NCBI GenBank assembly: GCA_017642425.1
Contig: JAGCPB010000001.1
Span: forward strand, 1-64,000
DNA from: Bacteroidaceae bacterium
GTDB lineage: Bacteria > Bacteroidota > Bacteroidia > Bacteroidales > Bacteroidaceae
Direction of reading: 5' to 3'
DNA length: 64,000 nucleotides
Each line of letters opens with the position of its first letter. Position 1 is the stretch's first letter. The position numbers and the translations under genes were made by a program. Of this stretch, positions 27,269-64,000 are shown piece after piece. The notes under the pieces were generated by a model that saw nothing but the letters and a program-made list of their open reading frames with translations, had not been told where the DNA came from and did no database searches.

Positions 27269-27539
27269 AGATAAATTTGCAAATGTCATGATAGAAATCG
27301 TTACTGACATTGTCTGCCTGAAAAGGAACTAACCTAACATTGTGGATTAATTTCGGTGAGTGCCTGCGTTTTTTAAGTATCATGATGTACCAATTAATGC
27401 TTAACGCCTTGGGCACGGGTAACTTTGTTGTTTTTACACATTGTCTAATGTGGTAAACCGTGAAGGCGGTTTAAATCCTTCGGGCACGGCTCTAACCTCC
27501 GTTGCTACCCTCTGTAGAAAGGACTATTCAGAAACAGGG
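27269..27539 (+). promoter_or_regulatory. Promoter and structured leader of the accessory operon
   Basis: A -7 box TAACTTTG lies at 27420-27427, putting transcription start near 27434; no clear -33 TTTG is seen. Two perfect small hairpins follow at once: CACATT-GTCT-AATGTG (27437-27452) and TAAACCG-TGAAGG-CGGTTTA (27454-27473). ACATTGT recurs at 27307, 27337 and 27438. Structured 5' leaders fit loading sites for NusG-type antiterminators. An alternative TTG start at 27441 would lie inside the first hairpin. Upstream of 27400 nothing else was recognised. Confidence 0.4.
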
Positions 27540-28115
27540 GTGTCCGTAAGGTATGCATATGATTCTAGCAAGCAATGGTTTGTTTTCAGAGCCACTTATG
27601 GGCGTGAATCCAAGGCACTTTCTTTTCTGGAAACCAAGGGCATAGAAGCATATCTGCCGCAACGTTGGACAGTGCGCCAGGTTGGAAATTCAACAAAGCG
27701 TGTAAAGGAACCGTTGCTGCCAAATCTGTTATTTGCATATTGTAGTCTTGAGCAGGCTGAGGTTCTGATTAAACATACTCCGGAGCTCCAGTATCTCAAC
27801 TATTATTATAATCATCTTCAGTGTGAGCCCGATGGCAAGAATCCGCCCCTGACTGTCAAATATGAGCAGATGATGAATTTCATTGCTGTTACATCGGCCC
27901 CCAATGAACATATTCGTTTGATAGATGCCAGCAGATGCCATTTCAAAAGTGGAGATAAGGTTCGTGTAGTTAACGGATCCTTTACCGGCGTAGAGGGTAA
28001 GGTGGCAAGAATATCCGGACAGCAACGTGTCGTAGTGGAAATAGACGGTCTGTGTGCGGTGGCTACGGCATACATACCCACGGCATTTCTGGAGAAAGAA
28101 GATTTAAAAGTTTGA
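27540..28115 (+). CDS. UpxY-type transcription antiterminator (NusG paralog)
   Basis: A 191-residue protein if started at GTG 27540. Longer readings from TTG 27441 or GTG 27450 add 30-33 non-conserved residues, and there is no in-frame ATG near the start. The NGN domain (QWFVFRATYGRESKA, about 12-110) is followed by a KOW domain (GDKVRVVNGSFTGVEGKV, about 137-154). UpxY proteins in Bacteroides bind elongating polymerase early in long capsule operons and prevent early termination. Here the genes behind it are not capsule genes but a run of over 36 kb of signalling/conflict genes, starting 18 bp downstream. Confidence 0.88.
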   Translation: MSVRYAYDSSKQWFVFRATYGRESKALSFLETKGIEAYLPQRWTVRQVGNSTKRVKEPLLPNLLFAYCSLEQAEVLIKHTPELQYLNYYYNHLQCEPDGKNPPLTVKYEQMMNFIAVTSAPNEHIRLIDASRCHFKSGDKVRVVNGSFTGVEGKVARISGQQRVVVEIDGLCAVATAYIPTAFLEKEDLKV

Positions 28116-28133
28116 TAATTAAAACTTAAAGAT

Positions 28134-28613
28134 ATGGAATTTGATCCCAGTAAGATTGAGGCATTGTGTAAGGAGAGAGAAGAAAAAATCCTGAAAGGAT
28201 ATTTTGGGGACCTTGTAAAAGAGGCTGCTATAGAAAGACCGGAGTTCATAGGCAAAAAATATCAGCCTGATTTGCCTTACAAGATAGAATCAGAATACAA
28301 GGAATATCTGGATTTTCTTGTAAGACAACTGTTCCCCGGAAATGACATTGTCAATGTAAACAGTTTCCTTGATGAAGAGAAGCTGCGCAAACTGATGACA
28401 GATGATGACCGTGAAGGTATTGAGGTAGCCTACAAAAAGGCTACCAGGAGAAATGTTGTTGAGAGGATAGCCAATACTAATCACAAGGATGTGACATTCT
28501 ATAAGGGTCTTCTTGAAGCTCACGCAAAAGACCTCTTGTTTGTTATGCGCACTGATTTCTTGGAGGAGTTGACGGGCAAATTTATTAAGAACAAGACTTT
28601 TGAGAAGGAATGA
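28134..28613 (+). CDS. Hypothetical cytosolic protein, first structural gene of the operon
   Basis: A 159-residue, highly charged, probably all-helical protein with no signal peptide or TM segment. No family recognised. It contains a possible helical hairpin (FLDEEKLRKLMTDDDREGIE, about 83-102). It sits 18 bp after the antiterminator gene and 9 bp before a RyR-domain gene, so it is likely part of the same system, perhaps a small adaptor. Confidence 0.7.
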   Translation: MEFDPSKIEALCKEREEKILKGYFGDLVKEAAIERPEFIGKKYQPDLPYKIESEYKEYLDFLVRQLFPGNDIVNVNSFLDEEKLRKLMTDDDREGIEVAYKKATRRNVVERIANTNHKDVTFYKGLLEAHAKDLLFVMRTDFLEELTGKFIKNKTFEKE

Positions 28614-28622
28614 AAGTCAAAT

Positions 28623-28919
28623 ATGAGCAAAGATAAATATATACCTCAGCCTGTGGATATATCGGATGTAATACTTCCCGATGATATCACAGAGATTGCA
28701 GAACAGATAGCCCGGAATGTTCATGAAGTCTGGGCAAAGTCCCGCATAGACCAAGGCTGGAAATACGGAGAGCAGAGAGATGACGATAAGAAAACGCATC
28801 CATGTCTTGTCCCTTACGATGAACTGCCTGAGAGTGAGAAGGATTATGACCGGGACACTTGTATCAATACTATTAAGATGATGATGAAACTTGGTTTCAG
28901 AATGACAAGAGAATCCTGA
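28623..28919 (+). CDS. Stand-alone RyR-domain protein
   Basis: A 98-residue protein that is essentially one RyR (ryanodine receptor repeat) domain. Seen: YIPQPVDISDVILPDDI, IARNVHEVWAKSRIDQGW, YGEQRDDDKK, HPCLVPYDELPESEK. This is the fold repeated in animal ryanodine receptors, and it also occurs in bacteria and phages. The bacterial role is unknown; ligand or nucleotide binding has been suggested for the fold. A paralog is encoded at 32171-32611. Confidence 0.88.
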   Translation: MSKDKYIPQPVDISDVILPDDITEIAEQIARNVHEVWAKSRIDQGWKYGEQRDDDKKTHPCLVPYDELPESEKDYDRDTCINTIKMMMKLGFRMTRES

Positions 28920-28934: not shown

Positions 28935-30305
28935 ATGAAATATGACGTTTTTTTAAGTTATAGGAGAAAGGGTGGCTTTGAGACAGCAAAGCATCTTTTT
29001 GACCTTCTGACTAAAGATGGGTATAAGGTATGTCTTGACCTTGATACCCTGAGAGAGGGTGATTTTGACAAGGCGCTCCTGGCTCGTATAGATGATTGTC
29101 AGGATTTTATTCTCATTGTGGATTCCCATGCCTTTGAGCGTTCTGTCAATCCTGATTTTGATCCACAAAAAGATTGGCTTAGACAAGAACTGGCATACGC
29201 TCTTGCCAAAGGAAAGAATATTGTCCCGGTATTGCTGGCTGGTGCAGTATTTCCTGATAATCTGCCACCCGATATATGTCAGATTGCACATAAGCATGGG
29301 CCAAGTTACAGTATGGAGTATTTTGATTCATTTTATAATAAACTTAAGAAATTCCTTCATACTAAAAGAGCGTTAATCAGAAAGACCTGGCTATTGTCAG
29401 TATTAGCTATTTTGATAATAGTAGGTGGTGGTTTATTACTGTATCTAACCAAGAATAGACCGGAATCACAGGAGCATGGGGATAGTTCAGCAACTGAACC
29501 AGAAACAACAATTTTTCAAGAACCCCAATCTCCATCGGCTCAAGAATCAGTACAGACACCTGAGTTTACAACTACAGAGAGCAGTGCTGATATATCAAAC
29601 AAGTTGAATAACAGTATTATTAACTCTAATAATGCTAAGAGTATTGTTAATCAAGTTAGTCCTACGACCTCAGTGGCGTATAATCAGGTCATTTCCGGAA
29701 AGGTGGGCCAATATAATTATGTGGATTTAGGTCTATCTGTTATGTGGGCTACTTGTAATTTAGGTTCATCAAAACCAAGCGATTCCGGTCAATTCTTTTC
29801 ATGGGGTGAAGTAACGTCTAAACCAGACTACACATGGATTACTTATACATTGCTAATTGATGGCACCAATAAGGATAATGCCAGATTCAAGAAGTATAAT
29901 ATAGACAACAATAGCGGTATAGTTGACAATCTTTTTAAACTGGAAACAACAGATGATGCTGCTTATGTTATTTGGAGGGACAAGTGGCGTATGCCCACTA
30001 AAGAGGAATTTGATGAACTTGTCATTAACTGCACATGGAAATGGACAAAAGTAGATGGTGTGCCGGGATATGTGATTACTTCAAAGAAAAGAGGATTTGA
30101 AAGCAACAGTATATTTCTGCCTGCTGCCGGATATTATCAGAAAAAAAACGTTCAGAAAAATGGAGAAAGGGGGTGTTATTGGTCATCCTCTTTAGGAAAT
30201 TATAGCCATTCGGCTGTCTATCTTGGCTTCAACTCATCAACAGAAAGAACATATAACGATGAGAGATATATAGGCCGTTCGATCAGACCGGTTTGTGAAA
30301 AATAA
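28935..30305 (+). CDS. Membrane TIR protein with C-terminal FISUMP domain
   Basis: A 456-residue protein. Residues 1-141 are a TIR domain (YDVFLSYRRKGG; DLDTLREGDF) with Glu85 in the DWLRQEL helix at the position of the NADase glutamate. A TM helix at 152-171 is followed by a low-complexity Ser/Thr/Glu linker (175-240). From about 245 to the end is a Fibrobacter-succinogenes-major-paralogous domain (VDLGLSVMWATCN, WRMPTKEEF, IRPVCE). The topology puts TIR inside and FISUMP outside the membrane. TIR domains either scaffold or destroy/cyclise NAD. The outer domain would act as sensor (inference). Confidence 0.9.
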   Translation: MKYDVFLSYRRKGGFETAKHLFDLLTKDGYKVCLDLDTLREGDFDKALLARIDDCQDFILIVDSHAFERSVNPDFDPQKDWLRQELAYALAKGKNIVPVLLAGAVFPDNLPPDICQIAHKHGPSYSMEYFDSFYNKLKKFLHTKRALIRKTWLLSVLAILIIVGGGLLLYLTKNRPESQEHGDSSATEPETTIFQEPQSPSAQESVQTPEFTTTESSADISNKLNNSIINSNNAKSIVNQVSPTTSVAYNQVISGKVGQYNYVDLGLSVMWATCNLGSSKPSDSGQFFSWGEVTSKPDYTWITYTLLIDGTNKDNARFKKYNIDNNSGIVDNLFKLETTDDAAYVIWRDKWRMPTKEEFDELVINCTWKWTKVDGVPGYVITSKKRGFESNSIFLPAAGYYQKKNVQKNGERGCYWSSSLGNYSHSAVYLGFNSSTERTYNDERYIGRSIRPVCEK

Positions 30306-30310: not shown

Positions 30311-32128
30311 ATGTGTATGATTGGAAAAAACAGATTCATAATAGTCGTATTATTCCTTTTCTTTCATACTGCGTTATCAATTAACGCACAGATGGGAATA
30401 ACGGATGGAATTAATGGTTTTACGGGTAATGGGACAGGCAGAAATTTGCGTGCAGCCGATAACAATGCCATTCAGGAACTTGTCAAACAGATTGCATACA
30501 AGTACTCATCTGATTTTGAGAGTGTGAAAGACTATTTGTTAGATGATTCGGGTGATGACAAACTTGCAGCCCAAGCTGTCGTCAACACTTATGTCAATTA
30601 TATCCAGAATAGTTCTGAAAGGGAGATACTTAGTCAATCGCCTAGTTATCAAGTCAGAAGATTTATTTCGGAAGATGCTCTTGGGGAGATTTTCTCTGCT
30701 CGTAGATTTAAGATGGAGGATATGCTCAAGAGTGCATCGAAAGCCGAAAAAGCCGGAAAGATTGATGATGCATTGAGATTTTACAATTGGAGCTATTACC
30801 TAATGCAGAGTTTGCCTAATTCTGATACAATCTCAATGGATGGCAGAATACTTGTTAATTGGATTCCAATAAGAATTGAAGAGATTTTAAGTGGTGTGTC
30901 TTTCGTTCAGCACAAAGCAGATGCCAAAAATGCAGTGCTTGATATTACATATAAAGGGGCTCCGGTAACAAGTCTGGACTACATATATTATAATGGGACC
31001 GACTGGAGCAATATCTTCAGCGCTAAGGATGGTATAGGCGTTCTTGAGTTTGATTCATTTGTTCCAGGTGATATACAGGTGAAATGTGAATGTAACTATC
31101 TGAGCGAAGCTCATATTGACAGAGATATCAATATGTTGGTTGATGTGTTGTGTGGGCCGTCTTTTCAGGGTGATATGAAAACGATAGGCTCAGATATTCG
31201 TGCATCTGTTGCTTCAGTAAATAGTCAGTACGAAATTGATGACACTGAAAACACTGATTATGAATTATTGAAACGAAGTACATTGGTATTGTTTTCTGAT
31301 AAGGAGGCATTGCCATTCAGGCGAAGGATTGACAAAGTATTGTCTGCCATAGAGTCCAAAAAATATAATTCAGTTGATGAATTGTTTTCGCTTGATGGGT
31401 TGGATATATTCAACAAACTTATTTCATACGGTGATGCGTATGTAGTTGGAGATTTGGATTCTTTGTTGTTCATGGTATCTAATGATGAGGTAATTTGTCG
31501 TTCAGTTCCTATGAACTTCTCGTTCAAAAACAACAACCGCACATTTGTGGAGAATGTTTGTTTTGTATTCAACAGCGATACTCTAATTGACAATATATCA
31601 TTCGGATTGGGTAGAAAAGCCTCTAAAGATATTCTGTATCATCCTAGTTGGAGCGAATATGCACGCAAAATACTGATAGAGTTCCTTGAGAATTACAAGA
31701 CCGCCTATGCATTGGGACGCATTGATTATCTTAGACAGATATTTGATGACAATGCTGTTATTGTTGTGGGAAAGGTTAGTGAAAGGCCTGCTCAGAGCGT
31801 TGATGTTGAACAAAAATATATTGATAACAAATATGTTCAGTACTACCACAGGTCCAAAGAGGAATACATGGAACAACTGGAACGTTGCTATAAAAGTAAT
31901 GAGTTCATTAATATACGTTTTGCCGAAAATGAAATTGAAAAGGCAGGAAAAGGAGGCGAAGTGTACGGAATATCTATAAAGCAGGATTACTACTCAACCA
32001 ATTATGGAGATACGGGTTATCTGTTTGTAATGGTTGACCTTAATGACCCGAAACAACCCATAATAAAAGTCCGTGTATGGATGCCTGAACGTGATCCTGA
32101 CTTTTGGGGGCTTTCTAATTTTTGGTAA
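30311..32128 (+). CDS. Exported protein with C-terminal NTF2-like domain
   Basis: A 605-residue protein with a signal peptide (about 1-27, SINAQ cut). The N-terminal part (AADNNAIQELVKQIAYKY) resembles LPP20-type envelope proteins. A short TPR-like helical pair comes next, then a central beta region. The C-terminus (about 450-600; LIEFLENYKTAYALGRIDYL, DDNAVIVVG) looks like an NTF2/SnoaL-like fold. Ends in aromatic-rich FWGLSNFW. Probably periplasmic or outer-membrane associated. It starts 5 bp after the TIR-FISUMP gene. A second ATG two codons later is possible. Confidence 0.65.
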   Translation: MCMIGKNRFIIVVLFLFFHTALSINAQMGITDGINGFTGNGTGRNLRAADNNAIQELVKQIAYKYSSDFESVKDYLLDDSGDDKLAAQAVVNTYVNYIQNSSEREILSQSPSYQVRRFISEDALGEIFSARRFKMEDMLKSASKAEKAGKIDDALRFYNWSYYLMQSLPNSDTISMDGRILVNWIPIRIEEILSGVSFVQHKADAKNAVLDITYKGAPVTSLDYIYYNGTDWSNIFSAKDGIGVLEFDSFVPGDIQVKCECNYLSEAHIDRDINMLVDVLCGPSFQGDMKTIGSDIRASVASVNSQYEIDDTENTDYELLKRSTLVLFSDKEALPFRRRIDKVLSAIESKKYNSVDELFSLDGLDIFNKLISYGDAYVVGDLDSLLFMVSNDEVICRSVPMNFSFKNNNRTFVENVCFVFNSDTLIDNISFGLGRKASKDILYHPSWSEYARKILIEFLENYKTAYALGRIDYLRQIFDDNAVIVVGKVSERPAQSVDVEQKYIDNKYVQYYHRSKEEYMEQLERCYKSNEFINIRFAENEIEKAGKGGEVYGISIKQDYYSTNYGDTGYLFVMVDLNDPKQPIIKVRVWMPERDPDFWGLSNFW

Positions 32129-32170
32129 GGATTTTTGTGTTGGCTAATCATTTTGATATTAAACTATAAT

Positions 32171-32611
32171 ATGAATACTTATATCCCTAAACCAATTGAT
32201 TTATCGGACGTAAACCTGTCTGATGATCTGAATGAATTGCAAGAGGCAATTGCAGAGAATGCTCATGAAATATGGTCACAGAACAGGATTGCTGAGGGTT
32301 GGACATACGGTCCAACTCGTGATGACCAGAAGATGCAGAATCCAGATTTGGTTCCTTACAACAAACTATCAGATGGCGAGAAGCAGTATGACCGTGAGAT
32401 GGCAATGAAGACCATCAAACTGGTAAAGAAACTTGGCTATGATATAGTAAAGCGCGAAGAAACAGAACTATACAGAGTTCTTATGAACCGTATCCGAAAC
32501 TCCAGACAGGAGTTTCATTGCCGCAGATGTGATAACGTGATATACCGCTATCAGGTTTTCTGCGATAAATGCGGTGTTCTTCTGGATATCGATTGGAATA
32601 GCTTGAAATAA
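32171..32611 (+). CDS. RyR-domain protein with zinc ribbon
   Basis: A 146-residue protein. Residues 1-92 are a RyR domain clearly related to the 28623 gene product (YIPKPIDLSDVNLSDDL; HEIWSQNRIAEGW; LVPYNKLSDGEKQYD). Residues 114-135 form a zinc ribbon with two CxxC pairs (CRRC and CDKC). The extended upstream in-frame reading (from 32135) lacks a natural start. The zinc ribbon may bind protein or nucleic acid. Directly precedes the SIR2-TIR gene (4-bp gap). Confidence 0.88.
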   Translation: MNTYIPKPIDLSDVNLSDDLNELQEAIAENAHEIWSQNRIAEGWTYGPTRDDQKMQNPDLVPYNKLSDGEKQYDREMAMKTIKLVKKLGYDIVKREETELYRVLMNRIRNSRQEFHCRRCDNVIYRYQVFCDKCGVLLDIDWNSLK

Positions 32612-32615: not shown

Positions 32616-33971
32616 ATGAAGGCAAAGCGAATAGATAAGGAACGGGTTTATAATGATGGCTTCAGTGCTTTCATTGAAGAGATAAGGAATGGTAATGTCT
32701 TGTTGATGGTGGGGCATTCATTTGAATCTAATCAGGAAGTATTCAGAGGTACCTTTTATGACTATATTCTAAGTAGGCTTAATGCTGTTTCAGGTACTGA
32801 GGGGCTGGATTTCTCAGACTTGAGTTATGATAACCGTTTCCTACTGGATAAAAACAATCCAAATCATATCAGGAATCTTCATGAAGAGATTGTTAGAATA
32901 ATAGACGAGAATGAATATTCTGCTCAAGAAGATGTATCCAAGAATCTTATTAGATTAATAAGCACAGGCTTTTTCAAGTTTGTTTTTACAACATCTTTTG
33001 ATCCATTGGTGGAGATAGCCATGAAGGAGAAGTTTGGGGATGTCAGGGTAATGAATATTTACGATAAGGCCAACAGGGATGTGGCATCTGTCTCAGATTT
33101 GGACATTCCTACCATTTATTATCTGTTTGGTAAAGCAATGCTCCCCAAGGAGAATGAAAAGGCCAAGAAATTTGCTGCTACAGATAATGACGCACTTGAG
33201 GTGATACGCAAGTGGCAGACAGATATGGCCAATTCATCATTATTACGGTATACGTCAGATAAATACATCCTTACATTAGGTTGTACCCAGGATGATTGGC
33301 TTTTCCGTTTTATATGGTATACGCTGAAAGGTGATTCTGGAAATCTGTCAAGAGGAGTAATTGCAGAGCATGCTAAGAGTGAGTCTTTATCTCATTATCT
33401 TAAGATGAATCATATTCTTATTGATAATAATGCAGATGAGGTTATAGAAAAGATCATGAATGCTGTAAACACGTTTAATCAAGATAAATGGAGTGTACCA
33501 GCTAACAATTGCGACGTGTTCATTTCATACTCCAGAGCAGATTCAGAGATTGCCCAGAAACTATATGATAGTCTTACGAAAGTTGGATTATCAGTTTGGT
33601 ATGATAAATACAACCTTGGAGGCAAACATGGTGGCAAGTTTATGGATGCATTGAAGGAGGCAGTTGATACGTCTACCATTTTTATCGCACTATTGAGTCC
33701 ATCAATTACAAAACAGTCTCATGATATTCATATATATCGCAGAGAATGGGAATGGGCCAAGGAGTTAAAGTGGGGACTGTGTGCAGATAGCCGTTGTTAT
33801 GCTGCATATTCAGATGATTATGACATAAACTCCAGAAAGTATCAGGATGCATTAGGATGGTTGGCAGAATCAGATAATTTTGAGTTTGTATCATCAAATC
33901 CTTGTTTTGATGAGTGTGCTCTACAAATACAGAAAAGAATAAATCAAATCAAAGCTCATGCAACAGACTGA
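32616..33971 (+). CDS. SIR2-like/TIR fusion protein, copy 1
   Basis: A 451-residue cytosolic protein. Residues about 15-285 follow the SIR2-like fold of defence proteins: LLMVGHS near the nucleotide loop, FVFTTSFD (122-129), YYLFGKA (168-174), TLGCTQDDW (220-228). The catalytic Asn and His positions hold Ser127 and Phe171, so the SIR2 part may not hydrolyse NAD. Residues 299-440 are TIR (CDVFISYSRADS; VWYDKYNLGG) with Glu377 kept. It overlaps the nSTAND gene by 14 bp. Together they look like an effector and its ATPase switch. A paralog is at 50771. Confidence 0.85.
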   Translation: MKAKRIDKERVYNDGFSAFIEEIRNGNVLLMVGHSFESNQEVFRGTFYDYILSRLNAVSGTEGLDFSDLSYDNRFLLDKNNPNHIRNLHEEIVRIIDENEYSAQEDVSKNLIRLISTGFFKFVFTTSFDPLVEIAMKEKFGDVRVMNIYDKANRDVASVSDLDIPTIYYLFGKAMLPKENEKAKKFAATDNDALEVIRKWQTDMANSSLLRYTSDKYILTLGCTQDDWLFRFIWYTLKGDSGNLSRGVIAEHAKSESLSHYLKMNHILIDNNADEVIEKIMNAVNTFNQDKWSVPANNCDVFISYSRADSEIAQKLYDSLTKVGLSVWYDKYNLGGKHGGKFMDALKEAVDTSTIFIALLSPSITKQSHDIHIYRREWEWAKELKWGLCADSRCYAAYSDDYDINSRKYQDALGWLAESDNFEFVSSNPCFDECALQIQKRINQIKAHATD

Positions 33972-36501: not shown

Positions 36502-36518
36502 TGGAGTGATTATTGTTT

Positions 36519-41736: not shown

Positions 41737-41896
41737 TCTCGCTTTTTCGTTGTAGCTCATCACTAACAGGATGTTATTATTTCCTCTTGCGATTGTATCG
41801 GATTGATTGTGTATAATTAAGCAGGGTTACCGAAAACTGTATTATAGAGTAGGTATATAAAAGTTGCACCCGTTACGTATCAGGGTAATTAGTAAT

Positions 41897-55200: not shown

Positions 55201-55584
55201 TCAGCAGACAATGATATCCATCTGTGGAATGCCCAAACTGGTGATGGCATTCATATGATGGTAGGTCATACGCGTGGCGCTTATGGCGTCAGTTTCAGTC
55301 CGGATGGCAAGTATCTGGCATCATCATCGTCCGATATGTCATTCCGAGTCTGGCATATTGCTACCGGAAAGGAAACATACCGGGTAATGGCTCACAGGCG
55401 TCGCATCTATTCTGTCCATTTTAATAATGAGGGAAATAAAATAGTTACAGCATCTAAGGATGGAACCTGTAAGATTTGGAATTACATGTCAACTGAGCAG
55501 TTAAAAGAGTATGTGGAACAACGTTTCCATGAGATGCCTCTGACAGAAATAGAGCGTGAACGATACTATATCGGTTATCGATAA
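52222..55584 (+). CDS. nSTAND NTPase with TM and 14 WD40 repeats
   Basis: A 1120-residue protein. The short N-terminal part (NPWAGLTPYEDP) is usual for the family. The NTPase has Walker A GKSGIGKT (67-74), Walker B VVVLDQFEE (163-171) and REDYLY. One TM helix (about 424-446) is followed by 14 WD40 blades (about 505-1100; typical FSPDGKY, VRLWD). The count suits two seven-bladed propellers. The order NTPase-WD40 recalls Apaf-1. The propellers would hold the switch closed until a ligand binds. Paired with the SIR2-TIR gene 5 bp upstream. Confidence 0.93.
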   Translation: MGDNSFYYSWGVKTSSNDYKPINPWAGLTPYEDPMDGTPIHKFCGREDEIFDVTRLIDDNFFVTLYGKSGIGKTSLLNAGVFPNLRRQQYVPLSIRLGILDESIVYQNAITEAIEENIISIGGTIRTVDVIPSQSDLDANDYLWNYFTRRVFYNSDGLVVFPVVVLDQFEELLRKPSVRSKGEKLLKQIGYLIDENNELQDCTVDGYEYTYDYNFRFVVSIREDYLYRLEDSIDNCYLAPMKRCRYRLRSMSRKGAKDAVLIPGSDVFVESEKEAIADVIISTSLNGIEGNISTNILSLVCSSIYSSHTTTIFDAELISLNEVKHFIEGNPFEKFYDDATRNLSRRELAYIERNLVDSGGHRDSVSESDFMLNVHSGADLLEGPNKILQRTSTGSGGYRVELIHDSFCGPLLAFKNKRDKYMRTVVAFLAFLVAVICAGTALFMNYQNDEIKRNLTRFVADKASTLVNDGDSYLSMRLISALISNNNNYTPEAEFALRKAVDANNATFYGHTQWVLGADMSPDGKYIVSVSRDKSVRLWDATNGLQLASLDGHTDMVNYVEYSPDGKWIVTASNDSTARIWDMGTLQPIAVFGGHNAGVKKAAFSPDGKLVATACLDDTVRLWRITDGNCLIKLAGHTAEVNGVSFSPDGGRVVSVSNDGTLRMWSVPDGREIMTRDVQANWLNDVSYSPDGKYIAVACDDSTACVLDARTGTTISIKDKVHISYVRTARFSHDGKYLVTTSSDNTLCIWDTETDTCRQVFKGHSDWVNMARFSPDDRFLYSASSDNTVRIWNLVDDNSLTAINCCPDDVVMHACYSPDGTTIATASYDGNVLLIDSSEGTVISNRNFGLPVTAISYNNKGNALSIALNNGEIRVICFNGLKDSIIINDRTISVNDMTWFSGDTCVVFAYSDGMVTKYDVHNKKQILTIHAHNDAINAVSISPNGKLLATASDDATAMVWDAFTGEFLCEYTKHSDRVEDIEFSPDGKNIATASADNDIHLWNAQTGDGIHMMVGHTRGAYGVSFSPDGKYLASSSSDMSFRVWHIATGKETYRVMAHRRRIYSVHFNNEGNKIVTASKDGTCKIWNYMSTEQLKEYVEQRFHEMPLTEIERERYYIGYR

Positions 55585-55611
55585 ACAGAAACAATTAATT
55601 GCAATTTATTG

Positions 55612-56097
55612 ATGGCAAGATTTAAGCGATTTATTATAGTTTCCGCAATTACTGTATGCGGTTTTTGTTGTGTATCAAATGAGTTAGACGTCAACATAGC
55701 TGTTGGCTTGTTCATTGGTTTATTGTCATTGCCTTTCAGAACCAAAGAAGAAAGAAAACAAATAGAGGCTGATATTAGAGCAAAAGAAGAGGCTCGAAAA
55801 AGAGAAGAAGAGGCCCGCAAGTCTCCTGGTTGCCATTCGATGGATAATGTAGACATTCTTACATTTCGTAGTTCCAACAATCTGTTGACTGCTGGAAATA
55901 ACTGTATAACGATGAAGATACGAAACAGGAATGCATACGATGTTATTGTATCTGTAAGATTTAAGTATTCAGATTCAGAAGGTTGGGATTCTTCTACTAA
56001 ATCATATGAAGTAGGCGGAAATAGGATCAGAACAATAGATACGTTAGGAAGTGCATGGCGCAAGGCCAAAGATGTGACCATTGTTTGTGTACATTAA
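55612..56097 (+). CDS. Small membrane protein with charged helix
   Basis: A 161-residue protein (ATG 55612). Two hydrophobic segments (about 7-20 and 27-42) are followed by a very charged helix (EERKQIEADIRAKEEARKRE, about 47-66) likely to form a coiled coil, and a C-terminal beta domain (about 75-161). No family recognised. Confidence 0.6.
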   Translation: MARFKRFIIVSAITVCGFCCVSNELDVNIAVGLFIGLLSLPFRTKEERKQIEADIRAKEEARKREEEARKSPGCHSMDNVDILTFRSSNNLLTAGNNCITMKIRNRNAYDVIVSVRFKYSDSEGWDSSTKSYEVGGNRIRTIDTLGSAWRKAKDVTIVCVH

Positions 56098-56146: not shown

Positions 56147-58195
56147 ATGAATTCTTTGCAATTTCAAATCTCGTCCTTTGTCATTGGTTTGATAATAGGA
56201 ACTTTATATTACATGATCCTTGCCAGAAACAGCAAGAGCAATAAGCTGTTTTTCAGAACATTGTGCATATGTGCCATAATTATATTCGTGGTTCATTCCT
56301 TTTTGGATGCATATGTTATTTCCGAAATTTCAGTTGGAGACTTGAGTTCGTTCTTTATAATAGCTCTTGCATTTTTTCATTCTCTTGAGCTTTTTGTCTT
56401 TCAGACTCATTTTTTTGATAACGGATATCAGGAGTTTTTTTTCGGAAAAGACGGATGTGAGTTTAGTAGTCATCCATGGTTGGCGTATCTGTTTGTCATA
56501 ACATTTATTCTGGCGGCAATTACATCTGTCGCTTTGGTAATAAAGGCAATTAACCGAAGAAGGGCTGGTCTTATGTGGCTATCAGACAATAAGGATAAGG
56601 CGGGGATGTCTCATGTCTTCTTCTTGGGTGGTAAGATGGCTCTTACATTGGCTGAAGATATAAAAAAACATTTTCCTGACAATCCCAGGATATTTGTTGG
56701 ATATCCGGATCCGGAAGAAATATTTATGGATCTGTCAATCTGGGAGAAAATCAAAAAGCTTTTCAAAAGCAGGACTGAAGATGATCTTGGACCATTTGAT
56801 GCCATTGTGTATTCCCGCATACCTTTAAGTGAGGCTGTGGGAACTGATATTTGTAGCCAGATGAATCTAAAAGACCTTGAGTTGTTCCTTAAGAATCATA
56901 TGTGCAAGGTCTATCTTTTATCTGATGACGAAAAAGAAAATCTTCATTGTGCAGAGATTCTATATAGGGACGGATGTACCGCTGAAATTTTTTGCCGTGC
57001 ATGTCGTGAAGGAGTAAACCGCATGTATGAGGATGCTATGACCAAGACTCCTTCAATAAATGTTCATCTGGTTGATTCCTCATATCTGGCGGTTAGGAAT
57101 ATAAAAAACTGTCAGGAACTGCTTCCTGTTAATTATGTCGAAAAGGGAATAGACAAGAATGGGTATCGTGAAGGATGGGTGGATTCTGCATTTAACTCTA
57201 TGATTCTTGGATTCGGCGAAACAGGCCGCGAGGCTTTGGGATTCCTCTATGAACACGCTGCGTTTGTAGACAGGGATTTTAAACGGAGTCCTTTCTCATG
57301 TGTTGTAATGGACAGGCAAATGGGGAAACTGGAGCAAGCTTATAGAAAAAGTTTCCCTGGAATGAATGAGTCTGTAGGTGTCTTTTTTAAATTATGCGAA
57401 ATAGGGTCAAATGAATTCTGGCTGGATTTAGCGGATAGAATACAAAACCTTAATTACATAGTTATTTGTTTAGGCGATGATAGGCTGAATCTTTATCTTG
57501 CTGTTGAAATGGTGGAGTATGCTTTCAGGCATGGAAAAGACCTTTCCAAGAATTTTGTCATCCTCGTGGCTCAGGAAGATCCTACACATCTGGACAATGT
57601 CACTCTTAATCATTATAATCAGATCGGTCAGTATCATAACTGCATCAGGACCTTTGGAGATAGGAAAGATGTGTGGACGTATGATAATATGACGAATGAA
57701 AGTATAAAAGCCAAAGCTAAGAGTTATTTTGCCGGATACATGCGTGCTCAAGGCGATACAAGAGACCCGGAAGTTTTATGGAATCAACGTGATGAAGAAA
57801 TAGAAACGACATCTGATTATGCAATTCATGCTCAACGTGTCCGTCAGCGTTCGCAAGATTATGCCAACTGTTTCCATGTGTCTACTAAGTTGGCATTGAT
57901 TGGTCCGGAGATTTATGACTGTCGTCGTGACATAGCCAAATGTATTCCCGCAGATTTTAAGAAGAATCCTATTCATTATACCGGGGCGGATGAACATGCG
58001 AAGAAAGTCTTGCACTATCTGGCAGTGCATGAGCATATCCGTTGGGAAGCATCACATGTAGCTATGGGATATACGCCAGGTAAAGTTACAGATGAAGTAT
58101 TGAAGACTCATGTTTGCATTATGAGTTATGACGATTTGACCCCAGAAGTGCAACACTATGATTATCTTGTAGTCAAGACCACATTTGAGATATAG
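56147..58195 (+). CDS. Membrane TrkA-like/RyR-domain protein
   Basis: A 682-residue protein with four TM helices (within about 1-145), two Rossmann-like regions (HVFFLGGKMALTLAEDI, about 170-187; ILGFGETGREALGFL, about 350-364) and a C-terminal RyR domain (VHEHIRWEASHVAMGYTPGK; MSYDDLTPEVQHYDY). This is the known bacterial channel-like layout TM-TrkA_N-RyR. It suggests ion transport or sensing controlled by a nucleotide or other ligand. The soluble paralog is at 42990. Confidence 0.8.
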   Translation: MNSLQFQISSFVIGLIIGTLYYMILARNSKSNKLFFRTLCICAIIIFVVHSFLDAYVISEISVGDLSSFFIIALAFFHSLELFVFQTHFFDNGYQEFFFGKDGCEFSSHPWLAYLFVITFILAAITSVALVIKAINRRRAGLMWLSDNKDKAGMSHVFFLGGKMALTLAEDIKKHFPDNPRIFVGYPDPEEIFMDLSIWEKIKKLFKSRTEDDLGPFDAIVYSRIPLSEAVGTDICSQMNLKDLELFLKNHMCKVYLLSDDEKENLHCAEILYRDGCTAEIFCRACREGVNRMYEDAMTKTPSINVHLVDSSYLAVRNIKNCQELLPVNYVEKGIDKNGYREGWVDSAFNSMILGFGETGREALGFLYEHAAFVDRDFKRSPFSCVVMDRQMGKLEQAYRKSFPGMNESVGVFFKLCEIGSNEFWLDLADRIQNLNYIVICLGDDRLNLYLAVEMVEYAFRHGKDLSKNFVILVAQEDPTHLDNVTLNHYNQIGQYHNCIRTFGDRKDVWTYDNMTNESIKAKAKSYFAGYMRAQGDTRDPEVLWNQRDEEIETTSDYAIHAQRVRQRSQDYANCFHVSTKLALIGPEIYDCRRDIAKCIPADFKKNPIHYTGADEHAKKVLHYLAVHEHIRWEASHVAMGYTPGKVTDEVLKTHVCIMSYDDLTPEVQHYDYLVVKTTFEI

Positions 58196-58209: not shown

Positions 58210-58698
58210 ATGAAATTGCTGAATTTCCTGCCGTTCCATATACCTGCCCCTACAGTCAAGATGTTGCGCAAGTATAACAATGAACGATACTGTATCTCTC
58301 ACCTGTATGATGGAAAAACAGGTAACTACATCTGTGATGCAATTGAGGATACAGTTCGTGATGTGAATCATAATGGCCATTTTGATAATGGAGAGGAGAA
58401 AGTGTACGGTAAGACAGCAATACCTTGTGGCCGTTATTATGTGACATTCCGCAAGACTACTCTTAACATTGGAACAAAAGCCAAGGGTGGTTGCATACCA
58501 TTGATTCATGATGTACCTCATTTTTGTTTTATCCGTATTCATAATGGGGTGGATGAGAAAAATTCAGAAGGCTGTATTATTTTGGGACACAATAAAGAGA
58601 AAGGTAAGGTTTTGGATTCAGAGTCAGTATGCCTGGATTTTTACCAGCGCATGAAATACAGACCTTTTTGGCTAGAAATAATAGATGAATTCCTATAA
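58210..58698 (+). CDS. DUF5675-family protein, possible peptidoglycan enzyme
   Basis: A 162-residue protein matching DUF5675 (CDAIEDTVRD; KVYGKTAIPCGRY; IHNGVDEKNSEGCIILG; KGKVLDSE). The family occurs in phages and bacteria. The IHNG...SEGCI pattern resembles the His-Cys arrangement of L,D-transpeptidases, so wall modification is possible. An insert DVNHNGHFDNGE (about 58-69) looks like an EF-hand calcium loop. It follows the TrkA/RyR gene by 14 bp. Confidence 0.82.
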   Translation: MKLLNFLPFHIPAPTVKMLRKYNNERYCISHLYDGKTGNYICDAIEDTVRDVNHNGHFDNGEEKVYGKTAIPCGRYYVTFRKTTLNIGTKAKGGCIPLIHDVPHFCFIRIHNGVDEKNSEGCIILGHNKEKGKVLDSESVCLDFYQRMKYRPFWLEIIDEFL

Positions 58699-58918
58699 TT
58701 ATAACAATATATTAATTAAAATATTGCTAAAATTGCACTATATTAATTCCGGAAACATCCTAATTGCAACTAAATAAAGATATGAATTCAGTAACAATCT
58801 GTTCTCAACTTTATGATTGGGAGGTTGTCAGGACTACCTTAGAATGGTATGCTTCAAATAAACAGTAATATTGAATAGTTTTTTTTCGTTTAAATATGTA
58901 ATTACAACAATGTTAAAT
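58699..58918 (+). other. 220-bp AT-rich gap with a 28-codon ORF
   Basis: The longest gap in the last third of the operon. It contains one small ORF at 58782-58868 (ATG to TAA; starts MNSVTICSQLYDW, ends YASNKQ) preceded by AAATAAAGAT. It is unrelated to any family I know and may be a gene remnant or chance. I see no clear TAnnTTTG promoter or terminator here. Confidence 0.3.
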
Positions 58919-59926
58919 ATGAAAAAGATTGTATTATCTCTTATTCTGGTACTCGCAACTGGAATAAGTATGGCTCAGAGCCAGTTTGTAGCTACACTTG
59001 TACACAATGGTGAGGTATCTACCTATTACGGATTCAATGCTTTTGTAGACGCATATACAGCAGCTGATAATGGTGATATAATAACACTATCCAGTGGTAC
59101 TTTCAGGTCAACCAAAATCAGTAAAGGATTGACTGTAAGAGGTGCTGGATTTGTTGATGACTCTGAATCTCAGACTAACAGTACCGTAGTTACTGGCAAT
59201 TTTTCAATTAACTTAGCGGATTCATTACGTTTAAGTTTTGAGGGAATTCTTTTTAATGATGTTGTATCTCTCACCAACCTTAGTAATTCTCAATTTCTAA
59301 AGTGTTATTTTAATTATTTGTCAAATGTTTCAAGTAGTAAGGCCATAAATAATACTTTTTATCATTGTTATATAAAAGATCCTGATTTATTTGGCGAAAA
59401 TAGTTTCATTTCTTGTGTGGTTAGATTTCGTAATTCATCTCAATCTTGTTCTTATACTTTCGATAACTGCATATTATTAGCTGGCAGTTCTGGTAGTCCT
59501 GTATATTATTCCACTTGTCGCAACTGCATTTTTATTCAACGTTCTGGTTATTATTTCAATAGTTCTTCTTTATCTCCTTCATCCGGAGGACTTGCTTTCA
59601 ATTGTATTTCAAATTATATATCTGGTTATTCTTATATTTTTAGCGCCCAAACTAATAATACAAATCAGATGGTTTCTGTTCCTATAAGTTCAATTTTTAA
59701 GACATATGATGGTGAAGGAATGCCACTTGAAGAAAGGTTTGAACTAACAGATAGCGCTGCAGCAGTATTCTTAGGCTCAGATGGTACTCAGGTGGGCATT
59801 TATGGAGGTCCTTTTCCGTTTTCTCCTACTCCCAGTTATCCGCGTATAACAAAATTCGAGGTTTCAAACAAAACAGACTCTGAAGGTAAACTCCGCATGA
59901 AACTTGAGGTTAAGTCTGGAAACTGA
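58919..59926 (+). CDS. Exported right-handed beta-helix protein
   Basis: A 335-residue protein (ATG 58919, or three codons earlier) with a signal peptide (MKKIVLSLILVLATGISMA). The next part (AADNGDIITLSSGTF ... GLTVRGAG) is the usual opening of Bacteroidales parallel beta-helix (pectate-lyase-like) surface proteins. Asn/Ser/Cys-rich coils follow. Such proteins bind or cut polysaccharide or act as adhesins. The next gene is 21 bp away. Confidence 0.75.
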   Translation: MKKIVLSLILVLATGISMAQSQFVATLVHNGEVSTYYGFNAFVDAYTAADNGDIITLSSGTFRSTKISKGLTVRGAGFVDDSESQTNSTVVTGNFSINLADSLRLSFEGILFNDVVSLTNLSNSQFLKCYFNYLSNVSSSKAINNTFYHCYIKDPDLFGENSFISCVVRFRNSSQSCSYTFDNCILLAGSSGSPVYYSTCRNCIFIQRSGYYFNSSSLSPSSGGLAFNCISNYISGYSYIFSAQTNNTNQMVSVPISSIFKTYDGEGMPLEERFELTDSAAAVFLGSDGTQVGIYGGPFPFSPTPSYPRITKFEVSNKTDSEGKLRMKLEVKSGN

Positions 59927-59947: not shown

Positions 59948-62900
59948 ATGAAGAAAATACAGCTATTTATAATGCTGTTAATTTTGGCTGTACCACTGCC
60001 AGGTGCTGTCAAGACCAAATATGAATATTGGTTTGACAATGATCGCACAAGCGTGGTTTCCGGTATAGTTGATTCTACATCACTTGATCTTTTGATTGAG
60101 ACTGGTTTACTGGAGTCTGGCATGCACACTATCCATGTTATGCTTACTGATACTAATGGAGCGCCAGTTCCGGTCATAACCAGACATTTCATAAAGGCAT
60201 TCAATGCTGATGAAATGAAAGAGGTCGTATTCTGGATAGATAATGATACAAGCGCCATAAAAAGACAGAACAGTATTGACGGCATTATTGAGATAGGGAC
60301 TGATAAAATGGACTATGGCTTCCACTATGTTCATGCTCAGGTAATAGGCAATTCCGGAACGCCGACTTCAGTCTCTTCTGCATATTTCATCAAGGCTTTT
60401 TATACTACCCAGTTGAAAGAGGTTAGTTACTGGTTTGACAATGACAGATCTGACAATCGCAAATTGGACATCACGGATGATATTATTGAGTTAAACACAG
60501 ATGATATTGATTATGGATTTCATTTTGTCCATATACAGGTTGTTGATAGTACAGGGATAGCTACATCAGTTTCAACAAAATCTTTCATTAAAACGTTTTC
60601 ATCAACCAAGATCAAGGATATTTGCTATTGGTTTGACAATGACGAATCAACAATTCACTCATTGAAAACATATGATGATATTATAGAGATTCCGGCAGAT
60701 TCTCTGTTGAACGGTTTCCATTCAATACATGTTAGGATTACTGACGATTTTGGCAGTCCTACATCTGTAGCTACAAGCTTCTTTATCAAGATGGATACAG
60801 ATATCGATCAGTTTCGCATGTTCTATTCTGTTGATAACGGCAAGAGTATTGAAATTACCAATGATATAACTGATGGGGTATGCTATCTGGATTTGGATAT
60901 GAGTAATCTGACCGATGGGTTGCATAGACTGGTTTATTATCTGGCAAATGAGAATGAAGTAACCACGAGTATCCGTACATGCATATTCTGGAAAAATCCT
61001 ATAGATGAGGCTCCTGTGCTGGAATACAGCTACTGGCTTAATGACGATGGTGACACTACTGTAGTCCAGAATACGGATTATTCTGATCCGTTAATTATGG
61101 ATGTTATGGTTCCTGTGGAGAGCGTGCCTTTCAGGAGTACGTATTTCAGTTTTTTAGTTGAGGATGGCAAACCGGTTGCATATGCCAAAAATGATTTCCA
61201 TATCAACGTTAAGAACTATTTTGGATATACAGATGAAGAGATGGCATCATACACCGATATGAATGTTAGTTATCCGATAGAGAATCTTATTCATCTTGAA
61301 CCAAATGATGTCAAGACTTCAGCAGTACCTGGCGAAAACAAGATCCTATGGTTTAAGTTTGATGTTGCACAGAATGATTCCGTCACTTTGAGGCTTGATG
61401 CCGAAGCTACTATGCAACTTTTCTCTCCCACCGGTCAAGAACTTATAAATGTTAATGATACCAATGCATTGCATTATAATGCCTCCTGGGTACATGAAAA
61501 TGGAACATGTTATGTTGCTGTACATGATGTTACTGCAGCAGTTAACGACATTACTATTGAGTATAACAGGACTGATGCATATGGATTACCTCATGTAATG
61601 AGTTTAACATGTAGTGATTCAATTAATATTGTGCTTGGGAATGTGGTGAATTTGTATGACGTAGTTACACTTTTGCCGTTGGAATCACGTAATAGGCTGC
61701 TGACAGTAAGTTCTGATAATGAACTGATAGCCAAAATTGTAGATGGTGGAGATGGGAAACTCGAGATTGTTGGAGCCAGTGCCGGTATAACAAATATCAC
61801 TGTCAGGTCTAATGATACACCAAGCACCTATAAGAGTATTAAGATTAAGGTATCAGAGCCGGACATAAAGATTAATTATGATGGTCGATTCCTTTCTTTC
61901 GATGCCGTTGATGGTGTAATACATTATACCTTGGATGGAACAGAACCTTCAGCACAATCACCTATGTTTAAGAACAAGATTGATGTTATGGGCCTTTGTG
62001 GAGTTAAGGCAATTGCTGTAAATAACGGATATGAATCTATGCCTGGCCATTATACTGTTGACAGTTATTATGATGGTGCTATAGCTACTACATCCCAAAA
62101 AGGTGTGCTAGCTAAAGCATTTGGATGGTGTGGCACTGATGGGGTGGAGAATCTTAGGATAGAGGGTACGCTTGATAATTCTGATTTTGAAACCATCAGG
62201 ACCCTTGTTAATCTAAGACTGCTTGATTTGAGTAATGCAGTAATTGCGGGGAATGAGCTTACAGACAGCCTGCTATCTGGTTCCGGAGTCTTGAGCGTAA
62301 AATTCCCGTCAACCATAGAGAAGGTAGGTAATGGATTGTTCTACGGATGTGATAATCTGGCATCAATAGTATGGAGCAGCACGACTGTCTTGACTCAGGA
62401 TGTATTCGGTGGTATGGACAACCCCAATTTCCTGCTGTTTGTTAACGATATTAGCCAGGCTGTCCGGACCGGGATTACCAATATTGTGGTTAATGGAATG
62501 GCTCAACGAATCACTCTGTCTGACAATATCCTGCCTGATGGAACTCATGGCCCTGCTAATTTTTATTGTCCCATGAGTTTTAGGGTCCAGAATGAGATTA
62601 CATATACCCATAATTACTCTCAAATCACTCTGATAGGTGACTGTGGCGGATGGGAGACATTGTCTTTGCCATTTGATGTGCAGACGATAACCCATTCTGA
62701 AAAGGGTGAGATAGTTCCATTCAAGTTATCTGCATCAGGTAGAAAACAGTTCTGGTTGTGTGCTCTTACAGATAATGGATTTGTTGATGCAGACAGTATT
62801 CAGGCAAACAAGCCATATCTGATAGCAATGCCTAATAACCCGGAATATTCGCCATTTTATTGTCTTAACGGCGATGTTACATTCTCTTCTAGAAATGTGG

Positions 62901-63271
62901 TAGTTCCTGTTTCACAACCAGATACAAGCTATAATGGTAGTTCCGGCTTTGTTCCGTGTTTTGAGCAAAAAGGGTCATCAGAGTCAATATATGCCTTGAA
63001 TGTGGGTGAAGAACGTTGGAACTTTGCTGCTGGCAGTTTATTTGACCGTAATTATAGGAGTGTTTATCCATTTGAGGCATATCGAATATCAACATCACAT
63101 GCTGTTCAAAGGATGCCTATTGCGAATGATATCAACGGAAACGCCACGAGTGTGTTGATTCCAAGAGCGGATGGTGTTGAAATCTTAAGATATGATTTGA
63201 AAGGAATGCCGGTGGATGACAACCATAAAGGGCTATACATTCAAGACGGTAAGGTATGGTTCAGGAAATGA
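59948..63271 (+). CDS. Large exported repeat protein (six YWFDND repeats, Ig-like and LRR parts)
   Basis: A 1107-residue protein with a signal peptide (about 1-20). Six tandem repeats of about 65 residues cover about 20-430, each opening with a YWFDND-like motif (YWFDNDRT, FWIDNDTS, YWFDNDRS, YWFDNDES, FYSVDNGK, YWLNDDGD) and usually ending FFIKA/FIKTF. Further on come a pre-peptidase-C-like domain (about 435-545), an Ig-like domain, a chitobiase-C-terminal-like domain (HYTLDGTEPSAQSP, about 658-671) and a BspA-like LRR section. The C-terminus (YDLKGMPV...GLYIQDGKVWFRK) resembles the end motif of Bacteroidales secreted proteins. The next gene overlaps by 4 bp. Confidence 0.78.
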   Translation: MKKIQLFIMLLILAVPLPGAVKTKYEYWFDNDRTSVVSGIVDSTSLDLLIETGLLESGMHTIHVMLTDTNGAPVPVITRHFIKAFNADEMKEVVFWIDNDTSAIKRQNSIDGIIEIGTDKMDYGFHYVHAQVIGNSGTPTSVSSAYFIKAFYTTQLKEVSYWFDNDRSDNRKLDITDDIIELNTDDIDYGFHFVHIQVVDSTGIATSVSTKSFIKTFSSTKIKDICYWFDNDESTIHSLKTYDDIIEIPADSLLNGFHSIHVRITDDFGSPTSVATSFFIKMDTDIDQFRMFYSVDNGKSIEITNDITDGVCYLDLDMSNLTDGLHRLVYYLANENEVTTSIRTCIFWKNPIDEAPVLEYSYWLNDDGDTTVVQNTDYSDPLIMDVMVPVESVPFRSTYFSFLVEDGKPVAYAKNDFHINVKNYFGYTDEEMASYTDMNVSYPIENLIHLEPNDVKTSAVPGENKILWFKFDVAQNDSVTLRLDAEATMQLFSPTGQELINVNDTNALHYNASWVHENGTCYVAVHDVTAAVNDITIEYNRTDAYGLPHVMSLTCSDSINIVLGNVVNLYDVVTLLPLESRNRLLTVSSDNELIAKIVDGGDGKLEIVGASAGITNITVRSNDTPSTYKSIKIKVSEPDIKINYDGRFLSFDAVDGVIHYTLDGTEPSAQSPMFKNKIDVMGLCGVKAIAVNNGYESMPGHYTVDSYYDGAIATTSQKGVLAKAFGWCGTDGVENLRIEGTLDNSDFETIRTLVNLRLLDLSNAVIAGNELTDSLLSGSGVLSVKFPSTIEKVGNGLFYGCDNLASIVWSSTTVLTQDVFGGMDNPNFLLFVNDISQAVRTGITNIVVNGMAQRITLSDNILPDGTHGPANFYCPMSFRVQNEITYTHNYSQITLIGDCGGWETLSLPFDVQTITHSEKGEIVPFKLSASGRKQFWLCALTDNGFVDADSIQANKPYLIAMPNNPEYSPFYCLNGDVTFSSRNVVVPVSQPDTSYNGSSGFVPCFEQKGSSESIYALNVGEERWNFAAGSLFDRNYRSVYPFEAYRISTSHAVQRMPIANDINGNATSVLIPRADGVEILRYDLKGMPVDDNHKGLYIQDGKVWFRK

Positions 63272-64000
63272 GAAGACTGCTTATTACACTTATGCTTACA
63301 GGAATGGCTGTGTTGTGTTATGCACAGCAAGGGTTAAGTGTGGAGAGTTTCAGATATTTAGAAAAAGATCTTACTGCTCTTACTCATGAGACAGAACGAG
63401 AGGATCAGAATGGCAACAGAGCTGCTCTAATCAAGATTGTTACGCCAGAACGAGGATTTGTATTTGATGGCGGAATGTTGGGGGTGGTGGATGTTGTAGA
63501 ACAGGAAGGTGAGATATGGCTTTATGTCCCACCGCGTTCACGTCATCTAAGCATTACACATAGATATTTCGGTAAATTGAGTGAATATGAATACCCTGTT
63601 GAGATTGTAGCAGGGCGTACATATGAGATGAGACTGGATATTGGTACTGGCCGCTACGTTAATATTACAACATCTGTCAATGGTGCCAGTGTAGTAGTTG
63701 ATGGCAGAAATGTAGGCGTATCACCTGTATATAATCATTATCTGACATTTGGAAAGCATAGTATAGACGCTGTTTCAGGTAATTATGAGGGTAGTGCTGA
63801 AATTGATGTTACTCAGAACACAGAGAAAGGAGTGGTGCTAATGGTGTCTATGAACGATATTTCCCCATTGTTGGGGGAGGTGGTGGTTGATGTGGATAAT
63901 GGCGCTGACATTATTTATGGTGGACAACGTGTCAGCTCCGGAGTATGGAGAACCCAACTTAAAGAAGGTGAATACGTTGTTTCTACAGCACTTCCTGATT
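63268..64000 (+). CDS. Exported PEGA-domain protein (partial, runs off right edge)
   Basis: 244 codons visible, from an ATG overlapping the previous stop (ATGA). Signal peptide about 1-21 (MRRLLITLMLTGMAVLCYAQ). Then a beta region, a PEGA domain (NGASVVVDGRNVGVSPV, about 140-156), and the start of a second PEGA-like unit (VVVDVDNGADIIYGGQRV, about 210-227). PEGA domains are common in surface proteins next to FISUMP/formylglycine-type proteins in Bacteroidales. It shows that the operon continues beyond the window. Confidence 0.85.
   Translation, partial: MRRLLITLMLTGMAVLCYAQQGLSVESFRYLEKDLTALTHETEREDQNGNRAALIKIVTPERGFVFDGGMLGVVDVVEQEGEIWLYVPPRSRHLSITHRYFGKLSEYEYPVEIVAGRTYEMRLDIGTGRYVNITTSVNGASVVVDGRNVGVSPVYNHYLTFGKHSIDAVSGNYEGSAEIDVTQNTEKGVVLMVSMNDISPLLGEVVVDVDNGADIIYGGQRVSSGVWRTQLKEGEYVVSTALPD

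Follow-up and report, generated by a model that had tools for sequence, protein, structure and literature searches.

A UpxY antiterminator gene with a structured RNA in its first codons heads a 41-kb conflict-type gene island in a Bacteroidaceae genome

The window analysed here is a 64,000-nucleotide stretch (C41:1-64000) of a Bacteroidaceae genome of 2.62 Mb in 114 contigs. Its right-hand part is occupied by a gene island of about 41 kb (C41:27441-68807), headed by the gene for a UpxY antiterminator, and the first codons of this UpxY clade encode a conserved structured, knotted RNA. The island comprises 31 plus-strand genes. The original prediction of a long, closely spaced plus-strand run reaching the window edge is borne out by 27 genes within the window and extended by four past position 64000, which encode a BACON lipoprotein, an extracytoplasmic function (ECF)-like sigma factor, a RyR-containing protein and a WG-repeat protein ending at C41:68807. 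A minus-strand SpoIID/HIT-like gene adjoins the right end. By gene coordinates, 24 of the 30 intergenic gaps are below 30 bp, six of these being overlaps, and the longer gaps measure 49, 83, 127 and 172 bp inside the window and 46 and 132 bp past it; automatic choice of open reading frames (ORFs) gives 30 genes, a minus-strand ORF being preferred over u162 (55609-56097). The G+C content of the island is about 0.38 (0.32-0.42) and that of the flanks about 0.50 on both sides. The head is laid out as follows.

27233..27259, plus strand: terminator-like hairpin closing alkD, directly before the island (terminator scan; similar hairpin in sister genome G005)
27270..27440, plus strand: presumed promoter and leader, with TAAATTTG at 27272-27279; kept in three sister loci
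27430..27561, plus strand: structured RNA element of four hairpins and a pseudoknot, overlapping the upxY start, with GGGGTGTC at 27537 (covariation, RNA model)
27441..28115, plus strand: UpxY antiterminator with NGN and KOW domains and an N-terminal extension of ~44 residues whose codons lie in the RNA element; the TTG start is uncertain (Pfam, NCBIfam)
28134..28613, plus strand: u159, second gene, at the place of upxZ in capsule loci; no family (family scans)

The motif TAAATTTG is presumably akin to the Bacteroidota -7 motif. That the first gene is a true UpxY, as had been proposed, is confirmed by the NCBIfam model antiterm_UpxY (NF033644; 139.1 bits, cut-off 100) and by Pfam matches to NusG and KOW; membership of the LoaP family was not found (35.6 bits, below the model cut-off of 125). 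UpxY is the first gene of a long same-strand run in the window and in the sister genomes G005 and G019. Its neighbor u159 occurs in 3 of 37 same-genus genomes, exactly those with an 81-100% UpxY match. Recruitment of UpxY proteins is reportedly the topic of Saba et al. 2024 (Nat Commun). The head resembles UpxY/UpxZ of Bacteroides capsule loci in its protein family, its position as first gene of a long operon and its small second gene, but differs in the non-capsule cargo at the window, the N-terminal extension, the structured RNA within the 5′ end of the gene and a u159 without a match to UpxZ or any other family in family-model scans. In a tree, 30 clade UpxYs stand apart from five ordinary ones with a support of 100/100. 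Cargo types are intermixed within the clade, where long branches make details unsure. Both this tree and the codon test below omit L087, whose upxY has an in-frame stop.

The RNA element spans ~130 nucleotides and coincides with the first ~44 codons of the clade. Most of its synonymous codons are nearly fixed (TTG in 28/28 sequences, ACA in 26/26, CCC in 29/29, GAA in 26/26, GGG in 30/30 and GTG in 29/29), and a few vary, such as the proline codon CCA/CCC/CCT/CCG. Among 30 sequences, the excess codon identity is 0.66 in the element (23 columns) against 0.06 in the rest of the gene (84 columns), with a P of 4e-11 computed over rows and columns that are not independent. A 15-row subset hand-picked by the analyst, with a median protein identity of 0.51, yields 0.70 (21 columns) against 0.01 (85 columns), while 32 ordinary UpxY genes display no excess in their first 15 conserved columns (-0.005; rest 0.04). 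This test rejects the idea that the conservation stems solely from a conserved N-terminal peptide.

Folding with RNAalifold was based on 28 of the 31 loci known at the time, L107, L108 and L109 being left out as divergent and later used as held-out loci. It gives four hairpins with two-sided changes at 11 of 20 pairs. Two features were added by hand: a pseudoknot in which the hairpin 2 loop (GAGG) pairs with CCTC further downstream, and one extra pair in hairpin 1. In this extended structure 96.1% of 700 cells are paired, and two-sided changes occur at 14 of 25 pairs; two-sided cells number 61, compared with 15.4 in shuffles (a value reached by 0 of 500), and slid versions of the structure pair only 37-48%. 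The pseudoknot helix is paired in all 28 rows, with two-sided changes at three of its four pairs. It is highly improbable that the conserved stretch acts as a DNA site for recombination or cargo exchange rather than as RNA. Such a site would suit the repeated change of cargo behind the head and the finding that upxY genes, including those heading resistance-gene operons, can sit behind invertible promoters (available parts of PMC8748976). Covariation that includes the pseudoknot argues against it, as does the lack of any recombinase by Pfam among the 31 island proteins. In addition, the 19 G-U cells against 4 A-C cells among the pair types listed are as expected of RNA from the sense strand; a single pair, however, accounts for 11 of the 19.

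With the pseudoknot left out, an RNA model detects the element at all 33 loci of the UpxY clade, 28 of them by construction. The remaining five are held-out loci located by protein (L107, L108, L109, L140 and L141), and by eye all five can form the pseudoknot, L141 with GACAC/GTGTC replacing GAGG/CCTC. Scans of 17 ordinary UpxY loci (L010-L020, L110-L115) and of RyR loci lacking UpxY did not detect the element. Across 393 genomes of the order, under stricter filters, the seven strong element matches are the seven heads of N-extended UpxY genes, and the source genome holds a single copy. A weak match in G069 (E 0.003) was judged to be chance, no UpxY-like ORF being present at the locus, and so were weaker ones at L107:5681 (E 0.27) and L067 (E 6.6). 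Rfam 15 contains no credible match; the head regions of L090 and the window, searched at E up to 10, returned weak, unrelated families, and at gathering scores the window contains only a cobalamin riboswitch elsewhere (7904-8102, RF00174, 85.7 bits). A structured RNA at the operon start, a feature of LoaP-type RNA-dependent antitermination, is present at the window and at the clade heads.

An ATG lies at a common position in 23 of the 28 rows aligned there, and the frame from that position to TGVS is open, over 30-32 codons in 28 rows and over 44 and 45 in L107 and L109. The shared ATG and open frame indicate that the element is translated in most loci. Since it spans the start region and the first ~44 codons, the element could serve as an operator for autoregulation, in which the folded start of the upxY mRNA is bound by UpxY, or by a different factor, and UpxY translation is set in this way, read-through of the operon being a separate matter. 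This we consider unlikely, as LoaP, the closest parallel, employs its leader RNA in antitermination (PMC12691694, in the portions available). By the same analogy, the element may instead be the loading site of this UpxY clade.

Sister islands show the head persisting while the cargo changes. The site between alkD and the SpoIID/HIT-like gene is an insertion hotspot. Both flank genes (alkD at E<=1e-60, SpoIID/HIT-like at E<=1e-100) share a contig in 19 of 37 same-genus genomes; 10 of these have no gene-sized insert (flank matches 5-355 bp apart), six carry an insert of 1.8 to 41.6 kb (G000, G019, G021, G020, G012 and G006) and three have a different flank arrangement. G005 is without an alkD match, yet it shares the right flank and also the gene that elsewhere lies left of alkD. 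At this site the islands of G005 and G019 are about 18 and 15 kb long, respectively. They share with the window their 5′ end (UpxY 81-82%, u159 71-75%) and their 3′ end (sigma factor 80-82%, WG-repeat protein 62-63%), whereas the genes between these ends are mostly different among the three. The gene partnering sigma is 39% identical in G005, where it is shorter and no RyR match was found, and 66% in G019, which has one additional gene between it and the WG gene. As a guess, transcription of the same operon could be initiated by the sigma factor that is encoded at the 3′ end and kept by all three sister islands. A separate 9.3-kb insert at the hotspot, in G020 (L131; G020:C21:75501-88500), encodes a DUF5675 relative sharing 80% identity with the one in G005, a short fragment resembling PrsW and a protein of 1557 residues; the sole UpxY match of that genome is on a contig other than that of its hotspot insert.

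Behind the head, the following cargo genes lie within the window (TM, transmembrane part).

28623..28919, plus strand: RyR domain protein (Pfam)
28935..30305, plus strand: TIR protein with weak Lcl_C match (Pfam); TM by eye
30311..32128, plus strand: 605-residue protein, no family (Pfam scan); signal-peptide-like N-terminus
32135..32611, plus strand: RyR and zinc-ribbon-like (Pfam scan)
32616..33971, plus strand: SIR2-like and TIR (Pfam)
33958..36501, plus strand: nSTAND1 NTPase with TM/DUF805-like part (Pfam scan)
36513..37196, plus strand: protein with weak Lcl_C match (Pfam scan)
37198..38100, plus strand: TIR protein (Pfam); TM by eye
38108..40015, plus strand: BACON and outer-membrane beta-barrel (Pfam scan)
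40027..41736, plus strand: lipoprotein-like, no Pfam family above cut-off (Pfam scan)
41864..42193, plus strand: 109-residue protein, no family (Pfam scan)
42277..42984, plus strand: PrsW protease (Pfam)
42990..44438, plus strand: 482-residue protein, no family (Pfam scan); RyR-like C-terminus by eye
44423..45808, plus strand: trypsin-like peptidase (Pfam for trypsin); FHA-like N-terminus by eye
45808..46986, plus strand: protein-kinase-like part and TM (below Pfam cut-off)
46973..49369, plus strand: CHAT peptidase with TPR-like part (Pfam scan)
49388..50743, plus strand: 451-residue protein, no family (Pfam scan); signal-peptide-like N-terminus
50771..52216, plus strand: TIR protein (Pfam for TIR); SIR2-like N-terminus by eye
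52222..55584, plus strand: WD40 repeats (Pfam) and STAND-like NTPase part; G005 relative (27%) matches nSTAND1
55609..56097, plus strand: u162, no family (Pfam scan)
56147..58195, plus strand: TM, TrkA-like part by eye, RyR (24.5 bits, cut-off 27.4; 29.6 bits in a second scan)
58210..58698, plus strand: DUF5675 (Pfam scan)
58871..59926, plus strand: 351-residue protein, no family above cut-off (Pfam scan)
59948..63271, plus strand: 1107-residue protein, CHB_HEX_C_1/Fn3_assoc (Pfam scan)
63256..63999, plus strand: PEGA protein, continuing to C41:64803 (Pfam scan)

Pfam matches in the cargo comprise TIR (4 proteins), SIR2-like, nSTAND1, WD40, CHAT, trypsin, PrsW and RyR, so that the domain list given earlier for this run holds except for FHA, which is seen by eye and has no Pfam match. 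Several cargo proteins look secreted. The domain set overlaps that of prokaryotic conflict systems with STAND, TIR, trypsin, FHA and caspase parts; TIR, trypsin, FHA, nSTAND1 and, in some loci, ECF sigma factors appear among such systems in the accessible text of PMC8195603. The island differs from these in being headed by UpxY and the RNA element, and PADLOC matches only single proteins among the 31. These matches fall into 15 families with 1-3 proteins each, for example PDC-S66 (3 proteins), TIR models, HEAT-ARM_XIII (2.4e-35) and mad6 (1.6e-6), and, being partial in this protein-by-protein scan, they do not name the island as one PADLOC system. At the tail, the ECF-like sigma factor scores 41.1 bits with TIGR02937, just below the cut-off of 42.9, and is without a Pfam match; it is followed by the RyR protein, which has weak zf-HC2 and BtrH_N matches besides its RyR domain, and then by the WG-repeat protein. 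The sigma gene overlaps the RyR-protein gene (C41:66107-67592; L005:6107-7592), and the two are perhaps a sigma/anti-sigma pair.

The 33 clade loci consist of the window, 24 loci from a contig scan with four UpxYs (three of them the known G005 and G019 loci), six from the order sample outside the genus and two from phage-collection records. At least one cargo protein was tested with Pfam in 24 of the 33; a class-defining match was obtained in 21, none in L095 and an unclear result in L082 and L108. L095 belongs to Prevotella sp. khp7 (NZ_FOIV01000002), and of the 24 contig-scan records it alone is not labelled as metagenome-assembled or uncultured. Nine loci carry conflict-type cargo, a label judged from domains: the window, L080, L081, L083 (FHA/caspase/PP2C/kinase), L084 (RCK/TIR), L085 (caspase), L087 (trypsin/CHAT/TIR), L100 (kinase/AAA/PP2C) and L109 (DO-GTPase). 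Polysaccharide cargo lies behind another nine (L088, L091, L093 and L094 by Pfam; L092, L095, L096, L097 and L101 by eye), ketosynthase genes behind five (L089, L098, L099, L102 and, by eye, L140), and SrfB (L086, L107) and type VI secretion system (T6SS) genes (L090, L105) behind two each. The contig ends too soon in L103, L104 and L106, and the cargo of L082, L108 and L141 is unclear. The clade is therefore not dedicated to immunity, contrary to what the original prediction had supposed of this UpxY. The search it proposed for UpxY beside conflict genes in other Bacteroidales does recover the pairing within the clade, but RyR clusters elsewhere mostly lack UpxY. As to a new use for the family, the pairing with conflict cargo is real in this clade, but resistance-gene operons headed by upxY have been published, so that non-capsule cargo is not wholly new (PMC8748976, as far as its available parts go).

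Several of these loci are of interest in their own right. In L090 (9990-14866), from a yak-rumen Prevotella metagenome-assembled genome, and in L105 (G424:C19, minus strand), from a same-family genome, UpxY and the element lie just before a ClpB-type AAA gene and TssC, whose presence supports a T6SS behind the head in both; other T6SS-like genes are seen by eye. The five ketosynthase clusters, with the UpxY head within or before them, are reminiscent of aryl-polyene loci. The head precedes SrfB genes at L086:1739-9281, where a phage-type integrase gene lies upstream, and at L107:2528-12089. L087:9990-20651 joins the element to a relative of the window's RyR-like/trypsin/kinase/CHAT/451-residue block (53-71% identity). 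A viral-contig scan with the UpxY alignment found no relative. Ten "Bacteriophage sp." records match UpxY, and the two reaching furthest into the N-terminus by identity and coverage (L140 and L141) both carry the element; they were rejected as phage copies, their other genes looking bacterial by eye. Nine plasmid records match UpxY from residue 42 onward only.

Taken together, these data favor, with a probability of about 0.58, a reading in which the island is transcribed wholly or mostly as a single unit and carries its own elongation head, UpxY being loaded at the element and reading through the cargo. This reading is based on UpxY family membership, the same ends around different cargo in three genomes, codon identity, covariation, the held-out finds, the coincidence of strong element matches with N-extended heads, and the literature. 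In this model, RNA polymerase would start soon after 27280 and transcribe the leader and then the element (27430-27561), whose nascent RNA would fold into the hairpins and pseudoknot. UpxY made from the same operon would then be loaded onto the polymerase at or near the invariant GGGGTGTC, as LoaP is with the dfn leader hairpin, and the modified polymerase would pass polarity and stops in the AT-rich, foreign TIR/STAND/RyR/CHAT/trypsin island. We infer recognition of the element by UpxY, antitermination as the outcome, a single transcript for the whole run and an immune role for the cargo. UpxY is described as preventing termination in capsule leaders (available parts of PMC7819879), and LoaP of Bacillus, likewise a NusG paralogue linked with a structured RNA where a long operon begins, binds a small leader RNA hairpin required for antitermination (accessible text of PMC12691694). 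The head described here differs from LoaP in its host phylum, Bacteroidota, and in an RNA of several hairpins plus a pseudoknot that lies within the gene of the antiterminator itself and whose binding by UpxY is putative. RfaH of Proteobacteria is also a specialised NusG paralogue for long operons, but its ops signal is a short non-template DNA sequence and it acts in trans (PMC12691694, PMC7593976, in the parts available). No published account of UpxY with such cargo or such RNA was found, in a search of partly accessible sources that included few subscription journals.

A number of observations weigh against this reading. Concerning the RNA, the structure was derived and scored on the identical 28 sequences, further pair types are no better than shuffles (269 of 500), and single-sequence folds of six elements surpass shuffles by a modest margin only (z -0.2 to -2.2). 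Hairpin 4 is almost invariant and hairpin 1 has two-sided changes at one pair, so that covariation supports mainly hairpins 2, 3 and the pseudoknot. The element shares sequence with the coding region, and translating ribosomes would unfold it. The common ATG is not present in the window, G005, G019, L091 or L099, where translation may start at TTG or elsewhere, and the upxY of L087 retains its in-frame stop, either an assembly error or a real loss, despite element and cargo. Concerning transcription, the plus-strand terminator-like sites found after the element all lie within genes, and gaps of 83-172 bp could hold promoters. In a scan within the window, the only intergenic plus-strand terminator-like site is that at 27233-27259, before UpxY. 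The target overcome would consequently be Rho-type polarity or intragenic stops. Terminator-like sites number 9 against 10.8 expected and, in the second half, 19 against 10.7 (standard deviation, sd, 3.2), above expectation; sigma-70-like promoter matches exceed shuffles (91 against 73.1, sd 8.5, and 79 against 61.2, sd 7.8), with a consensus that is not that of Bacteroidota.

Related loci also count on this side. G021 carries at the same site a 28-kb insert with RyR, partner-like and WG genes, in which UpxY was not found; its median gap is 38 bp, compared with 5.5-11 bp in the three UpxY-headed islands (automatic ORF choice). In a sample of 393 genomes, 36 other genomes with RyR (E<=1e-6) have no UpxY match (E<=1e-15) nearby, within the limits of draft contigs; G424 is the sole other genome with both on one contig, 227 kb apart. 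G281 contains the RyR-like/trypsin/kinase block without a UpxY match, and in G147 a clade UpxY and a weak trypsin relative (32%) lie on different contigs. The original prediction had named related loci lacking UpxY throughout as evidence against it, and the outcome is divided, G021 being without the gene and G005 and G019 having it. The G021 island and the other RyR loci would suit an account in which an old capsule locus at this site left UpxY behind as a remnant without a role in the island, the latter being several independent units. We find this account distinctly unlikely, given that none of the three sister loci has lost UpxY, u159 or the RNA element despite the change of cargo and that other conflict clusters carry the same head.

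The preferred reading, of an island transcribed through its UpxY and RNA element, can be widened to the clade, whose protein-plus-RNA head before other long operons points to a portable switch by which very long operons would be read. Whether the head is a portable elongation cassette, in which a NusG paralogue with its own pseudoknotted RNA loading site has been moved before diverse giant operons that are read as single units, we hold to be evenly balanced. If so, the cassette would combine an antiterminator with its RNA site in a single short unit, would represent RNA-based antitermination in Bacteroidota and could mark cryptic giant operons. The structured element, with no match in Rfam, offers a handle for finding giant operons from sequence, and the clade lets RNA guidance of UpxY proteins be tested directly at the bench. 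For the Bacteroidales, the reading would mean that long immunity-type islands can be silent or expressed en bloc through one elongation factor.

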